Position numbers and translations under genes: made by a program. This document shows positions 247 through 53,035 of a DNA stretch of 64,000 bases, piece after piece. Origin of the DNA: Aquibium oceanicum (lineage in GTDB: Bacteria; Pseudomonadota; Alphaproteobacteria; Rhizobiales; Rhizobiaceae); the NCBI RefSeq assembly GCF_001889605.1, contig NZ_CP018171.1, forward strand, positions 372,001 to 436,000. The letters are read 5' to 3'. How positions within the stretch are numbered: the stretch's first letter is position 1; every line of letters starts with the position of its first letter. A model generated the notes under the pieces. That model worked only from the letters and a program-made list of their open reading frames with translations. It did not search any database and was not told the origin of the DNA.

Positions 247-1125
247 TCAGCCTGCCTGCAGTCGACGGCAGAGATCGTCGAGTTGCTCGAGCGTCGAGTA
301 GCTGATGCGAACCTCACCACCCTTCTCTCGGTGATGGATCGCCACGCCCAGCCCCATTGCATCGGAAAGGAGTTTTTCCAGTGCGATGGTGTCGGCATCC
401 TTCTCCTTAGGAGCAGCACTGCTCTTGGTTTCGGGCGCCCGCCCCGGGGCCGGCGCCTGTGCGAGAGCCTCGGCCTGCCGGACAGACAGGCCCTCGCTGA
501 CGATCCGTTCGGCCAGCGCCTTCGGGTTTTCCGCAGTAACGAGCGTGCGGGCATGACCGGCGGACAAGGCACCGTCCGTGAGCATCTGCCGGACCTCTTC
601 AGGCAGCCGCAACAGGCGGAGCGTATTCGCGACATGGCTGCGGCTCTTGCCGATCACCTGGGCGAGGTCCGCTTGCGTGTACTGATGCTCCTCGATCAGG
701 CTCTGGTAGCCACCGGCTTCTTCCAGTGGGTTGAGGTCGCTTCGCTGGACATTTTCGATGATCGCAAGTTCGAGCGCGACGCGATCGTCCACTTCGCGCA
801 CGATGACCGGCACCTGGCTGAGCCCGGCAAGCTGCGCGGCGCGCCACCTGCGTTCGCCGGCAATGATCTCGAAACGGCTCGATCCGGAGGGCCGCACCAC
901 TATGGGCTGGACGACACCATGCTCCTTGATCGACTGGGCCAGGTCGGCCAACTCGGCCTCGGGAAACCGGCGGCGCGGGTTTCGCGGATTGGGCGTCAGG
1001 AACTCGATCGGAACCTTCCTGTCCGACGGAGCGCTTGCACGCTGCGGGTCGGCAGGCTTGTCCATTTCGCCGATCAACGCAGCGAGCCCGCGCCCCAGCC
1101 GCTTTCTCGAAAGATCTTCGCTCAT
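247..1125 (-). CDS. parB: Chromosome-partitioning protein ParB
   Basis: A 292-residue ParB/Spo0J protein, the CTP-dependent clamp that loads at parS and spreads along origin-proximal DNA. The start is set at ATG 1125 (MSEDLSRKRLGRG), which gives the N-terminal RKRLGRGLAALI motif used to engage ParA. Upstream in-frame codons extend into the end of parA without family similarity. The CTP-binding motifs are visible as GERRWRAA (about 90-97) and ENVQRSDLNP (about 124-133). A helix-turn-helix spans about 150-172 and a dimerisation domain follows. It lies 31 bases downstream of parA in one operon. Three parS-like sites lie 1.4-3.5 kb upstream. Confidence 0.97.
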   Translation of the reverse strand: MSEDLSRKRLGRGLAALIGEMDKPADPQRASAPSDRKVPIEFLTPNPRNPRRRFPEAELADLAQSIKEHGVVQPIVVRPSGSSRFEIIAGERRWRAAQLAGLSQVPVIVREVDDRVALELAIIENVQRSDLNPLEEAGGYQSLIEEHQYTQADLAQVIGKSRSHVANTLRLLRLPEEVRQMLTDGALSAGHARTLVTAENPKALAERIVSEGLSVRQAEALAQAPAPGRAPETKSSAAPKEKDADTIALEKLLSDAMGLGVAIHHREKGGEVRISYSTLEQLDDLCRRLQAG

Positions 1126-1156
1126 CGCAGGTAATATCCGGTCGAAGGTTGAAATT

Positions 1157-1954
1157 TCAGGCGGCGCGAAGCTGCCGTTCCCGACGAATGACCTCGGAAG
1201 CAAGCTGGAGATAGGCCTGGCTACCGCTGCACTTCAGGTCATAGAGGATCGCAGGCTTCCCGTAAGATGGCGCCTCTGAAACTCGCACGTTCCGGGGGAT
1301 GACGGTCTGGTAGACCTTCTCTCCCATGTGGAGCCGCACATCCTCGACGACCTGATTGGCGAGATTGTTGCGGCCGTCATACATCGTCAGAACGATCCCC
1401 TGGATCTGGAGCCCGGGATTGATGCTCGCTCGAACCTCGTCAATGGTTTCGAGGAGCTGGCTGAGGCCTTCCAACGCGAAGAACTCGCATTGCAAAGGCA
1501 CGAGGACCGAATCGGCCGCTGCCATCGCGTTGACTGTGAGAAGGTTGAGCGAAGGCGGGCAGTCGATCAGGACGTAGGAGTAATCGCCGGAGCTCGACTT
1601 TGGCCCATGTAGAGCCTTGCGCAGTCGCATAGCCCGATCGGGAGCGCCCGCGATCTCCATTTCCACCCCGAGCAGGTCCATGGTCGACGGTACGACCGAA
1701 AGCTCAGGCACGGCGGTCTTCATGGCCGCTTCGACAACCGACATATTGCCGACCAGCACGTCATAGGAAGAGCGATCACGATCCTTACGATCGATACCAA
1801 GTCCGGTACTGGCGTTCCCCTGTGGATCGAGATCCACGATCAGCACGCGCTCACCGATCGCTGCCAGCGCGGTAGCGAGGTTTATAGCGGTCGTCGTCTT
1901 TCCGACGCCGCCTTTTTGATTCGCAATCGTGATGATGCGTGCGCCGCCCAGCAT
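1157..1954 (-). CDS. parA: Chromosome-partitioning ATPase ParA
   Basis: A 265-residue Soj/ParA-type ATPase that forms nucleoid-bound gradients and pulls ParB-parS complexes apart. The deviant Walker A box KGGVGKT is at residues 14-20 with the signature lysine. The switch/Walker A' region DLDPQGN is at 41-47, and a hydrophobic Walker B (VLIDCPPSL) follows near 130. It sits between rsmG (20 bases upstream) and parB, the classical alphaproteobacterial rsmG-parA-parB arrangement near the chromosomal origin. Confidence 0.97.
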   Translation of the reverse strand: MLGGARIITIANQKGGVGKTTTAINLATALAAIGERVLIVDLDPQGNASTGLGIDRKDRDRSSYDVLVGNMSVVEAAMKTAVPELSVVPSTMDLLGVEMEIAGAPDRAMRLRKALHGPKSSSGDYSYVLIDCPPSLNLLTVNAMAAADSVLVPLQCEFFALEGLSQLLETIDEVRASINPGLQIQGIVLTMYDGRNNLANQVVEDVRLHMGEKVYQTVIPRNVRVSEAPSYGKPAILYDLKCSGSQAYLQLASEVIRRERQLRAA

Positions 1955-1974: not shown

Positions 1975-2616
1975 TTAGCCCTTGCGCCGGACGCTTCGAA
2001 TCTCAAGGATGACGCTTTCGACGTCGACGGCGCTCTGGTGTTGTATCAGATCGAGATTCCACGTGTCATGCGCTAGTTGGAGCTCTCCACGGTAATCCCG
2101 CCCTTTATGGAAGTAGCCTATCGTTTCCCTAGCCAACCAGGGCTCGGAGAGGCTCACCAAGGATGATAGGTTCGCAAGCGCTCTGGCGCTCATGGCTTGC
2201 GGCGCGGGATGCTCAGCAATGTAATCTTCCGCGCGTTCGCAGATGATTTCTGCGCGTGGAGCGAGGTCCGCCAGCGCACTGCGGAGGAACGCAGCCTTCT
2301 TGCCGTTGGATTCCACCAAGGAGAGGGACCGCGTCTTTTGCTCCTCGGCAAGAATCGCCAGAACCGCTCCAGGAAATCCACCCCCCGTTCCGATATCGAC
2401 CCAATGTGATATCGGTCCCTCTTTCGTGATGCCCGCTAGCTGGGCGCTGTCGAGAATGTGCCTGGTCCAGAGATCATTCAGCGTGGACGGAGCGGACAGA
2501 TTTATACGCGCGGCCCAGCGCAGAAAGATTCCTTCAAAAGCCTCCAGGCGTTCAAAAGTTTCACGTGAAACAACTCCTGCGACAGCCTGAAGCGAAGCAT
2601 ATCGGTCCCCAATCAC
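1975..2616 (-). CDS. rsmG: 16S rRNA (guanine-527-N7)-methyltransferase RsmG
   Basis: A 213-residue SAM-dependent methyltransferase (GidB family) that makes m7G527 in 16S rRNA; loss gives low-level streptomycin resistance in other bacteria. The SAM-binding glycine loop [10 protein letters not shown] is at about 74-83, preceded by the RHILDS motif of the family. The start ATG overlaps the stop of mnmG by four bases, implying translational coupling. A near-perfect parS site (2557-2572) lies inside the coding sequence near the N-terminus and encodes residues VSRETF. Confidence 0.96.
2557..2572. promoter_or_regulatory. parS site 1 (ParB loading site)
   Basis: The 16-mer AGTTTCACGTGAAACA matches the conserved bacterial parS palindrome TGTTTCACGTGAAACA at 15 of 16 positions and contains the uninterrupted 14-base palindrome GTTTCACGTGAAAC at 2558-2571. 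It lies inside rsmG, about 1.4 kb from parB. It is the best-matching of the sites found and the likely main ParB nucleation point. Confidence 0.9.
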
Positions 2617-4533: not shown

Positions 4534-4549
4534 TGTTTCACGTGAGTCA
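4534..4549. promoter_or_regulatory. parS-like site 2
   Basis: TGTTTCACGTGAGTCA matches the parS consensus at 14 of 16 positions; the AA of the right half is GT. It lies in the short gap between mnmE and mnmG, 35 bases (start to start) from an identical 16-mer. Pairing and proximity to parAB make real ParB binding likely, though the half-site mismatch may weaken it. Confidence 0.75.
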
Positions 4550-4568
4550 CGCCGGTTCCTCTCGGCAT

Positions 4569-4584
4569 TGTTTCACGTGAGTCA
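4569..4584. promoter_or_regulatory. parS-like site 3, overlapping the mnmE stop codon
   Basis: A second exact copy of TGTTTCACGTGAGTCA. Its last three bases are the reverse complement of the TGA stop of mnmE. It shares the same two consensus deviations with the site at 4534, so the pair probably arose by duplication or is kept by selection for that variant half-site. Confidence 0.75.
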
Positions 4585-7964: not shown

Positions 7965-8999
7965 CTAGCGCCCTCTCACCTGGGCGATCATCGCCTCGAC
8001 ATGCTCGATGGGGGTCTCGGGCGTGATGCCATGTCCGAGATTGAAGACGAAGGGGCCGTCCGAAAGCGCGTCCAGGATCGCCGCCACACCATCCGACAGC
8101 GCCTCGCCGCCGGCGACGAGCCGCATCGGGTCTAGATTGCCCTGAACGGTCCCTTGCGCCTGCAAACGGCGCGCCTGGGAGAGCGGCACGGCCCAGTCGA
8201 GCCCGAGTGCCTGCACGCCGGTGCTTGCCTTGTAGCCGTCGTAGAGGCTGCCAGCGCCTTTCGGAAAGCCGATGATCGGGGTTTCCGGGTGCGCCTGCCT
8301 GATCTTCTTCACCATCCTGGCGACGGGCGCCTCGCAGATTGTGCGAAACGAAGCCTCGTCGAGCACACCCGACCAGCTGTCGAAGATCTGGACGGCGTCC
8401 GCGCCATTGTCGATCTGCCGGATGAGATACTCCGCAGAGACGTCCGCCAGGACATCGAGAAGCTTCGCGAAGGCCTGCGGATGCTCGTAGGCGAACAGCC
8501 GAGCCGGCGCCTTCTCGGGCGTGCCCTTCCCGGCAATCATGTAGGTGGCGACCGTCCAAGGGGCGCCGCAGAACCCGAGAAGCGTCGTCTCGGCCGGAAG
8601 TTCGTGCCGCAGACGCCTCACGGTCTCGTAGACGGGGGCGAGTCGCTCGTGGAACGCATCCGTCCTCAGCTCTTCGATGCCCGTCTCATCGATCGGCGTC
8701 ATCAGCGGTCCTTGCCCCTCTTCGAAGCGCAGATCCCTTCCGAGCGCATGGGGAACGACGAGAATGTCGGAAAACAGGATCGATGCGTCGAAGCCAAAGC
8801 GCCGGATCGGCTGCAGGGTCACTTCGACGGCGAGATCGGGATTGTAACAGAGATCGAGGAAGCTCCCGGCTTCTTTCCGCACTTCCCGGTACTCGGGCAG
8901 ATAGCGGCCAGCCTGGCGCATCATCCAGATCGGAGGAGGATAGACAGTCTCGCCCTTCAGGACGCGCATCATCCGTCGTTCGACTGCCATCTGCGTCAC
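7965..8999 (-). CDS. hemE: Uroporphyrinogen decarboxylase
   Basis: A 344-residue HemE, which removes four carboxyls from uroporphyrinogen III to give coproporphyrinogen III. The signature [17 protein letters not shown] is at 24-40 with the substrate-binding Arg, and [12 protein letters not shown] with GNLDP motifs follow further on. ATG 8999 is used; an in-frame ATG three codons later (MAVERR) is an alternative. Its promoter must lie in the 9000-9391 interval, which is also the candidate replication origin; origin and hemE promoter overlap in Caulobacter too. Confidence 0.97.
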
Positions 9000-9391
9000 C
9001 TCTCCGCCCTCAATGAAAAAGAGAATCTCTTTTTTAAGGAATCTGATTGTTCTTAGACTCTGTCAGAATCGGGGATATCGGCTTTTCCCCATCCGCGCCA
9101 GCGCGGGTACCTCCGATCGCGCGCGTGCATAGTGTCGCGGCGGCGGTGGTGATAGCGGGGATTGTCCAGAATTCCTGTTCACAAACAGGGAGTTGATCCG
9201 GCACCGCTTATTGCGATCGTGCAGGCTTGTTCCGGACGACTTCTACCGCCCGCCTTTTCCTCCCCAGCCCGGGAGACAATTCCACACCCATCCGAATTGT
9301 GGATGAAACGGCTTCTGATACAGTCGCGCCGGCCGCACCTCGCGGTCTCGCCAAACCATCCCCTGATTCCCACAGGACAGGCCTTTCCCCT
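9000..9391. other. Candidate chromosomal replication origin (oriC) between hemE and the DUF299 gene
   Basis: This 392-base interval has no convincing gene. It holds a 19-base dyad (9016-9034) in an AT-rich patch (9012-9055) and four GANTC methylation sites at 9023, 9039, 9056 and 9066. DnaA-box-like words are TGTGGATGA at 9298-9306 (8 of 9 to TGTGGATAA) and the weaker TTGTCCAGA near 9162. Genes run leftward on its left and rightward on its right. In Caulobacter the origin lies in exactly this hemE/DUF299 gap, and rhizobial origins map beside hemE. It must also contain the promoters of both flanking genes. Confidence 0.65.
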
Positions 9392-10213
9392 GTGAACAAG
9401 CCGCGAAACTTCTTTCATCTCCACCTCATATCGGATGCCACCGGCGAGACGCTGCTGGCCGCCGGCCGGGCGGCGTCGGCCCAGTACAAGGATGCGCGTG
9501 CGATCGAGCATATCTATCCGCTGATCCGCACGGAGCGGCAGCTTGCCGCCGTGCTTCAGGAGATCGACAGCGAACCGGGGATCGTCCTCTACACGATCGT
9601 CGACCAGCCGCTGGCCCGCATGATCGACGAGAGCTGCGCGGCAATGGGCCTGCCTTGCGTTTCGGTACTCGAACCCGTGCTCACCGTCTTCCAGTCCTAT
9701 CTGGGAGAACCGGCCGGCCGACGCGTCGGCGCGCAGCACGTGCTCGATGCCGAATATTTTCGCCGCATCGACGCGCTGAACTTCACCATGGAGCATGACG
9801 ACGGGCAGCTGCCGACGGACATAGACGAGGCCGACATCGTGCTCGTCGGTATTTCAAGGACGTCGAAGACACCGACGAGCATTTATCTCGCCAACCGCGG
9901 CATCAAGACCGCGAACCTGCCGATCGTCCTGGGCGTCGACATCCCCGACAGCCTGAAGAAGGCGAAACGGACGCTGATCGTCGGGTTGATCGCCTCCGCC
10001 GAACGCATCTCGCACGTGCGCCAGAACCGGATTCTCGGCACCGGCGCTGGGTACGATGCGGAACGTTATGCCGATCGCACGGTGATTTCGGAGGAGCTGA
10101 CCTACGCCAGGCAGATCTGCAACCGCTACGGCTGGCCCATGATCGATGTCAGCCGCCGCTCCATCGAGGAAACCGCGGCCGCCATCCTTGCGTTGCGCGG
10201 TCGCAGCCGCTAG
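9392..10213 (+). CDS. DUF299 kinase/pyrophosphorylase regulating PEP synthase or pyruvate phosphate dikinase
   Basis: A 273-residue bifunctional ADP-dependent kinase/Pi-dependent pyrophosphorylase of the PPSRP/PDRP family, which switches PEP synthase or PPDK by threonine phosphorylation. The P-loop GISRTSKT is at about 153-160, and the N-terminal [13 protein letters not shown] block is typical. GTG 9392 is chosen because homologues begin at (M/V)[14 protein letters not shown]; in-frame sequence upstream to 9227 is unrelated and overlaps the origin region. Next to the putative origin it is the RP001-type neighbour known from Caulobacter. Confidence 0.93.
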
Positions 10214-23136: not shown

Positions 23137-23787
23137 GTGCGTGTCGCCATCATCGATTATGGATCGGGCAACCTCCGCTCCGCGACCAAAGCCTTCGAGC
23201 GCGCCGCGCGCGAGGCAGGGATTTCCGCCGAGATCGACCTGACCGACGATACGGAGCGGGTTCGCCGCGCCGATCGCATCGTACTGCCGGGCGTCGGCGC
23301 CTATGCCGACTGCGTGGCTGGCCTCCGCGCCGTGGCCGGCATGTGGGAAGCGATCGAGGAGGCGACCGGAAAAGGCGGAAAACCCTTTCTCGGGATCTGC
23401 GTCGGCATGCAGCTGATGTCGGAACGCGGGCTGGAGAAGACCGTCAGCCGCGGCTTCGGCTGGATCGCGGGCGACGTGAAGGAGATAGAGCCGACCGATC
23501 CGTCGCTCAAGATCCCGCAGATCGGCTGGAACACGATTCACGTGAAACATCCGCATCCGCTGTTCGACGGCATCCCGACCGGAGCGGACGGGCAGCACGC
23601 CTATTTCGTCCACTCCTACCATCTGGCGGCGAAGGACCCCGATGACGTGCTCGCGGTCACCGACTACGGCGGCGAGGTGACGGCAGCGGTGTCGCGCGGT
23701 AATCTCGCGGGCACGCAGTTCCATCCCGAGAAGAGCCAGATGCTCGGCCTGGCTCTGATTGCGAACTTTCTGAGGTGGAAGCCTTGA
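23137..23787 (+). CDS. hisH: Imidazole glycerol phosphate synthase glutaminase subunit
   Basis: A 216-residue class I glutamine amidotransferase that gives ammonia to HisF. The nucleophile loop GICVGMQ carries Cys88; the triad His196 and Glu198 lie in [12 protein letters not shown] 23137 is the start ([12 protein letters not shown]). The HisH-HisF pair is split here by hisA and a Uma2 gene. A parS-like 16-mer lies inside it at 23534-23549. Confidence 0.97.
23534..23549. promoter_or_regulatory. parS-like match inside hisH
   Basis: CGATTCACGTGAAACA matches the parS consensus at 14 of 16 positions and keeps the palindromic core TTCACGTGAA. It lies about 14 kb from the putative origin and 22 kb from parB. 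It encodes TIHVK in hisH and could be coincidental, but outlying parS sites are known in many genomes. Confidence 0.4.
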
Positions 23788-53011: not shown

Positions 53012-53035
53012 CCGTTAAGCTTAACGGAAGCTTAA
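53012..53035. promoter_or_regulatory. CtrA-box-like TTAA-N7-TTAA overlapping a 16-base palindrome
   Basis: CCGTTAAGCTTAACGG (53012-53027) is a perfect palindrome, and TTAA-CGGAAGC-TTAA (53021-53035) matches the full alphaproteobacterial CtrA consensus. It lies 74 bases before the acyltransferase ATG, between the dnaK terminator and the gene. Three TTAA words occur in 21 bases of otherwise GC-rich DNA. Confidence 0.55.

Follow-up and report, generated by a model that had tools for sequence, protein, structure and literature searches.

Introduction

The chromosomal origin of Caulobacter crescentus, Cori, is described as an AT-rich stretch of 404 bp that lies between hemE and COG1806/DUF299 and carries DnaA boxes (PMC1914354). 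The same paper predicts an origin between hemE and COG1806 in Rickettsia, and gives the Caulobacter and Rickettsia origins as 383-404 bp long. Five of the seven DnaA boxes in Cori have been called weak (PMC8959179), and the G- and W-boxes described for Caulobacter provide a parallel for origins with weak boxes (PMC4468827).

In this study, we analysed a stretch of 64,000 nucleotides of Aquibium oceanicum, referred to here as the window, which corresponds to positions 372,001-436,000 of contig 1. The genome has 5,324,561 bases in two contigs, of 5,158,483 bases (contig 1) and 166,078 bases (contig 2). The oriC of Sinorhizobium meliloti reportedly adjoins hemE and is DnaA-dependent, a finding attributed to Sibley et al. 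in 2006; S. meliloti entered our comparison by description, not by sequence. A first-pass annotation of the window had placed a probable oriC between hemE and the DUF299 gene. We examined this gap in the window, in relatives and on the scale of the chromosome.

Results

A gene-free gap lies between hemE and the Kinase-PPPase gene

The window contains 392 bases without a recognised gene at positions 9000-9391, or 381.0-381.4 kb of contig 1. As the first-pass annotation had stated, the gap lies between hemE and the DUF299 (Kinase-PPPase) gene. The start codon of the latter is inferred to be the GTG at 9392, and the proteins of relatives align from the first residue. To the left of the gap, parB, parA, rsmG/gidB, mnmG, mnmE, rho, a UPF0093 (hemJ-like) gene and hemE are on the minus strand. 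To the right, the Kinase-PPPase gene and maf are on the plus strand. The divergence of gene direction described earlier was therefore seen in all ten genes checked with Pfam (8/8 minus on the left and 2/2 plus on the right), and parABS was likewise found nearby, with parB and parA at 247-1954 and parS-like places around the gap. The GC content of the gap is 57.1%, compared with 64.9% for the window. The closest hemE relatives (best 80 of at least 596) include records of Mesorhizobium, Nitratireductor and Aquamicrobium, and judged from these the chromosome is probably of the Rhizobiaceae kind. The coordinates of the features are listed in Table 1.

Table 1. Genes and sequence features of the window (a dot marks features given without a strand).
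Feature	Position	Strand	Remarks
parB	247..1203	-	Pfam
parA	1157..1954	-	Pfam
parS-like site	2557..2572	.	one mismatch
Two parS-like sites	4534..4584 (4534-4549, 4569-4584)	.	two mismatches each
hemE, uroporphyrinogen decarboxylase (URO-D)	7965..8999	-	PF01208
Proposed chromosomal oriC, hemE/COG1806 gap	9000..9391	.	neighbourhood and gap length kept in relatives
AT-rich, DNA-unwinding-element-like stretch	9009..9061	.	least stable 50-mer inside, 9012-9061
Inverted repeat AAAAAGAGA-A-TCTCTTTTT	9016..9034	.	by eye; imperfect in congeners
Four GANTC (CcrM-type) sites	9023..9070 (9023, 9039, 9056, 9066)	.	enriched in relatives
Near-invariant block, consensus TTCTNNTTCTNAGANTCNGT, with GANTC	9044..9063	+	not a DnaA box
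Weak DnaA-box-like TTTTCCCCA	9083..9091	+	two mismatches; identical in three congeners
Weak DnaA-box-like TTGTCCAGA	9162..9170	+	two mismatches; not found in congeners
Best DnaA box, candidate, TCATCCACA	9298..9306	-	one mismatch; 6/9 positions with 95% identity or more over 71 rows
Box-like ATTCCCACA	9366..9374	+	three mismatches by eye; CNACA core among conserved columns
Weak DnaA-box-like TTGTTCACA	9391..9399	-	two mismatches; overlaps GTG of next gene; identical in three congeners
Kinase-PPPase (ppsR-like, DUF299/COG1806)	9392..10213	+	PF03618
parS-like site	23534..23549	.	two mismatches

The arrangement and length of the gap are kept in relatives

The locus was compared with the best 80 of at least 596 confirmed hemE matches, which were obtained from a scan of genome contigs. 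The Kinase-PPPase gene divergently adjoins hemE in 71 of these 80. Together with the window this gives 72 gaps, 66 of which are 375-414 bases long, with the gap ends of the relatives extrapolated from protein matches rather than taken from annotated start codons. The related rows are not independent, so the ratios given for them show conservation of the locus and not many separate events. Among the remaining nine loci, maf adjoins hemE in seven, and two (L012 and L033) have hemE without these neighbours; the gap statistics leave out all nine. The alignment of 71 rows leaves out L015, which has a gap of 748 bases, and the tests performed on 70 gaps (13-mer and trios) leave out L014 and L015. 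Within the genus, the locus was obtained from three of the four other genomes, referred to as congeners; the fourth, which is 69% complete, gave no hemE.

The seven hemE-maf gaps (L041, L050, L059, L061, L065, L074 and L079) are 421-670 bases long. Their counts of DnaA boxes within one mismatch are 5, 0, 0, 1, 5, 2 and 1, with none in L050 and L059, and the exact form TTCTNAGANTC of the conserved block described below was found in L059 only. The Kinase-PPPase protein had no match in the five genomes of this group that were searched (L041, L050, L061, L074 and L079).

Two records drew attention in their own right. The contig of L039 has an origin region of the rhizobial hemE/Kinase-PPPase type under the title Bacillus subtilis SK6B4, suggesting that the record is mislabelled or contaminated. 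Genome G348, which is metagenome-assembled, has two hemE genes (L012 and L187); besides the one at the origin there is a second at another locus, which is either a paralog or contamination.

The hemE side of the gap is AT-rich and contains clustered GANTC sites

The lowest-stability 80-mer of the 64-kb window is 9009-9088 and the lowest 50-mer is 9012-9061, which bears out the AT-rich patch seen in the first pass. By 30-mer stability, the gap ranks second in the window, behind 62159. On predicted stability, the gap would therefore have the AT-rich unwinding region that characterises hemE-linked origins. The dyad noted earlier in the same patch is present by eye at 9016-9034; in the three congeners it is imperfect, also by eye, and is thus not the conserved feature.

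Five GANTC sites were observed in the gap versus 0.57 expected at the window rate, the fifth being at 9365. The other four span 48 bases, making them the tightest four in the window (the next tightest span 163), in agreement with the clustering that had been pointed out. When the window sequence was shuffled by dinucleotides, at least four GANTC sites appeared in the first 110 bases at a rate of 0.0058, and at least five in the whole gap at a rate of 0.08. It is therefore the clustering, and not the total, that is unusual. Across the gaps compared, the first 110 bases contain a mean of 2.64 GANTC sites, compared with 0.30 at the rate of the loci and 0.66 in dinucleotide shuffles.

A near-invariant block is the most conserved part of the gap

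At least 95% identity across the 71 rows was found at 25 positions of the gap. The block at 9044-9063 accounts for 13 of them, the DnaA box at 9298 for six and the core 9370-9374 for four. In the block, T is invariant in 71/71 rows at 9044, 9047, 9050 and 9053, i.e., at every third base, and the GANTC at 9056-9060 is kept in 68/71 rows with G, C or A as the free base. The window itself departs from TTCTNNTTCTNAGANTCNGT at 9045 and 9046. The three congeners vary in the middle of the block (CTACTATGACTCTGT and similar) and retain GACTCTGT. The exact form TTCTNAGANTC is present in 65 of the 72 gaps and never on the opposite strand, and it was found at 3 places outside the gaps in 881,779 bases of loci. 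The gaps without it are L006, L027, L029, L049, L064, L078 and L084, the first four of which retain GANTC.

The genome contains a single exact copy of the 14-mer TTCTNAGANTCTGT of the block, and three further places match it with one mismatch. Across the order, it was found in 13/199 genomes (5/7 within its own family and 8/192 outside), and the reversed control in 10/199, with 0 in the family. As a marker outside the family, TTCTNAGANTCTGT was rejected because the reversed control matches as often. An 11-base form of the block was also rejected as a genome-wide marker, since it is too short and its reversed control often matches as well. Among the titles and abstract openings listed in a literature search, no description of the block or of GANTC clusters in rhizobial origins was found, and the conserved block may be new.

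DnaA boxes are enriched across the gaps and weak in the window

The near-perfect DnaA word reported at 9298 was verified; 9298-9306 differs from TTATCCACA at one position. There are four such words in the window, and 0.02 would be expected in the gap at the window rate. The strict DnaA box TTWTNCACA was not found in the gap, and it occurs 33 times in the genome versus 55 for the reversed pattern. The gap of the window has a single box within one mismatch, and its count of three within two mismatches is among the four lowest of the 72 gaps. Across these gaps, DnaA boxes within one mismatch have a mean of 2.81 per gap versus 0.05 per 395 bases elsewhere in the loci, an enrichment of about 56-fold over the surrounding DNA, and versus 0.09 in base shuffles. 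Within two mismatches, the mean is 5.85 per gap, compared with 0.79 outside and 1.08 after base shuffling.

In the congeners, TTTTCCCCA and TTGTTCACA were present at matching places in 3/3, and the place of the best box has TCATCCACA in two and TCGTCCACA in the third. Judged from these sequences, the genus seems to have settled on weak DnaA boxes. Two further stretches are shared at this scale. The stretch 9071-9091, GGGGATATCGGCTTTTCCCCA, is identical in 3/3 congeners and mostly not conserved in the wider alignment, and 9313-9325, TTCTGATACAGTC, which follows the best DnaA box, is near-identical in the three congeners and several rows of the Mesorhizobium group.

CtrA sites of the form TTAA-N7-TTAA were absent from the gap, and the window has one, at 53021. 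The IHF consensus used had no match within one mismatch in the gap, where the best match has two mismatches; with the same consensus, matches within one mismatch were found in 54/72 gaps versus 22/72 shuffled gaps.

Comparison of the gap with DnaA-trios and E. coli 13-mers

On the minus strand, the invariant T positions of the block give an A at every third base. DnaA-trios are described as having to sit on the 5' tail adjoining a DnaA box (PMC8287927). The block has the same period of three, but its strand and side are opposite to the published rule, and no DnaA box within two mismatches was found in the window on the side of the block that trios require. We applied a rule that asks for at least three NAN trios 5' of a DnaA box, on its bound strand and no more than 16 bp away. 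Two matches were obtained in the gap of the window, both on the minus strand, at boxes 9298-9306 and 9162-9170; the former box is paired with TATCAGAAG at 9312-9320. The trio rate over 70 gaps exceeded that of shuffled gaps two- to fourfold, with a shuffling that breaks up the DnaA boxes as well.

The unwinding element of E. coli oriC has 13-mers with GATC. Positions 9023-9035 fit GANTCTNTTNTTT exactly, which is the E. coli 13-mer with GATC read as GANTC and the last T dropped. In base shuffles, the local likeness to MG1655 oriC was reached by 47/2000 shuffled blocks, by 44/2000 shuffled oriC sequences and by 1/1000 shuffled AT-rich stretches. GANTCTNTTNTTT within one mismatch was found in about one third of 70 gaps versus 2% of shuffles, which lose the GANTC density. 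E. coli-like 13-mers were rejected as a rule for the family, there being no general T-run after GANTC, and the flanking genes of E. coli oriC differ from those of the Aquibium gap. We regard the 13-mer likeness as a lead only.

parS-like sites and the support interval of an octamer strand switch surround the gap

The 16-mers resembling parS within two mismatches were found at five places in 5.32 Mb. All are located at 359,841-395,549 of contig 1, a span of 36 kb around the gap, and a reversed control pattern was found nowhere. We also examined GGGNAGGG, a candidate for the FtsK-orienting octamer in this genome, using the first 100 places per strand, which cover the first 1.35 Mb only. Left of the gap it occurs 12 times on the plus and 33 times on the minus strand, and right of it 88 and 41 times, respectively (Fisher p 1.5e-6), and none of 2000 label shuffles matched the observed change. 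The two-unit support interval of the switch, 245-407 kb, contains the gap and excludes dnaA, which is at 626 kb, 245 kb from the gap. The best-scoring single break falls at 272-273 kb, with the interval of the gap ranking second by 0.12 log units. The opposite switch was observed at about 2.89-2.97 Mb, near the position antipodal to the gap (2.960 Mb). Reversed GGGNAGGG gave counts of a similar order and imbalance (356/443 vs 443/531), a comparison of strand totals and not of positions.

The GC-skew check proposed in the first pass, made on sampled stretches only, did not favour the gap. The skew was weak; the rise falls at 1.00-1.13 Mb in the best two-break model and at 4.5-4.75 Mb in another that fits well, and a rise at the gap was found in none of the eight models listed. 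The terminus side is visible in the same data. We gave GC skew little weight because 20-kb stretches scatter beyond the difference between the arms. A search of 44 stretches of contig 1 with the 28-mer dif of E. coli revealed no dif-like site, the closest match differing at 10 positions.

Discussion

The gap at 9000-9391 is very probably a DnaA-dependent chromosomal origin, oriC, as read from its sequence. The proposal made in the first pass is supported by the gene neighbourhood and the near-fixed gap length in 71/80 relatives (best 80 of at least 596), by the DnaA-box enrichment across gaps, by the clustering of parS and by a GGGNAGGG switch interval that contains the gap. The place of the gap, its composition, its conservation, the parS clustering and the strand switch are direct observations. 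The locus would be a further case of the known hemE-linked alphaproteobacterial oriC and is in this respect not surprising. It resembles Cori in its flanking genes, in a gene-free length of about 400 bp, in being AT-rich and, more tentatively, in its candidate DnaA boxes. Cori carries the non-coding RNA ccnA. Five CtrA sites and an IHF site are described in Cori (PMC1914354), whereas none was found in the gap within the limits used. Most of the 72 gaps have more and stronger DnaA boxes than that of the window. Among the relatives, the block is present in L051 and L081, rows of Ensifer and Sinorhizobium.

The weakness of these boxes is one reason to ask whether replication in fact starts at another ori-proximal place, such as beside parAB or beside mnmE-rho, with the gap as a neighbour only. 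The octamer interval is 162 kb wide, and by 50-mer and 80-mer stability the mnmE-rho gap, which begins at about 5,932, ranks second lowest in the window. However, the only exact match of the 14-mer TTCTNAGANTCTGT in the genome falls in the hemE/Kinase-PPPase gap, the DnaA-box enrichment holds for this gap in comparison with the remainder of the locus of each relative (about 13 kb in most cases), and contig 1 has no two strict DnaA boxes within 2 kb of each other, the one such pair (1.3 kb apart) being on contig 2. An origin beside repABC or linked to dnaA had been named in the first pass among the outcomes that would speak against the gap. As far as tested, neither was seen; the sole RepC match in the genome is on contig 2 (166 kb), and dnaA is outside the octamer interval. 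We consider an origin elsewhere in this region highly improbable.

It could also be argued that the gap is merely a shared regulatory region and that the block is the hemE promoter, perhaps of the GcrA/CcrM type. In 60/65 gaps, the first base of the block is 31-54 bases upstream of the hemE start codon, a promoter-like distance. The methylation-dependent site of GcrA is GANTC in promoters. GcrA binding is described as dependent on adenine methylation (PMC3667746), and in Caulobacter hemE transcription is itself reported to be part of origin control (PMC8959179). This explanation appears very improbable, as it leaves the DnaA-box enrichment, the near-fixed gap length and the parS clustering unexplained. 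Genome G349 (a Pseudaminobacter soli record; L033 and L186) also speaks against it. There, a hemJ-like/Kinase-PPPase stretch without hemE retains the block variant ATTCTACGACTCTGT, together with a cluster of three GANTC sites and two DnaA boxes, the exact block pattern being absent. A hemE found elsewhere in this genome (L033) lacks the exact block over 1.5 kb of upstream sequence, as read on one strand. The block thus seems to stay with the origin, in what is a single case and one in which the same promoter could serve hemJ and rho. Genome G348 was unsuitable for this comparison, as another hemE sits at the origin.

Following established origin biology, we infer how an oriC at this gap would work. 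DnaA would occupy the best box at 9298 first and then cooperatively fill the weak boxes at 9083, 9366 and 9391. The DnaA oligomer would open the AT-rich stretch by hemE, at about 9009-9061, where the helicase would load and from where two forks would leave in opposite directions. ParB on the nearby parS sites would then separate the new origins. The block at 9044-9063 would mark the edge of the opening region and most likely contact the initiator on opened DNA or bind an accessory protein.

A more specific role of the block can be put forward only tentatively. That it serves Rhizobiaceae origins as a dedicated element bordering the unwinding region, to which another protein or DnaA on opened DNA would bind, is possible and on the whole rather unlikely. 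The boldest form of this idea, that the cell senses origin methylation through the CcrM site of the block in the way that GATC sites serve E. coli, is very unlikely. In Agrobacterium, depletion or excess of CcrM is described as having no clear effect on ori1 and affecting only ori2 (PMC11514494), and for Caulobacter a review describes CcrM as not required for initiation, though its overexpression disturbs chromosome content (PMC6090056). Both results weaken the methylation reading.

The position of the origin sets the replichores and the gene-dosage order of the chromosome. In the aligned relatives, the most conserved element of this origin is a GANTC-bearing block by the unwinding region, and not a DnaA box.
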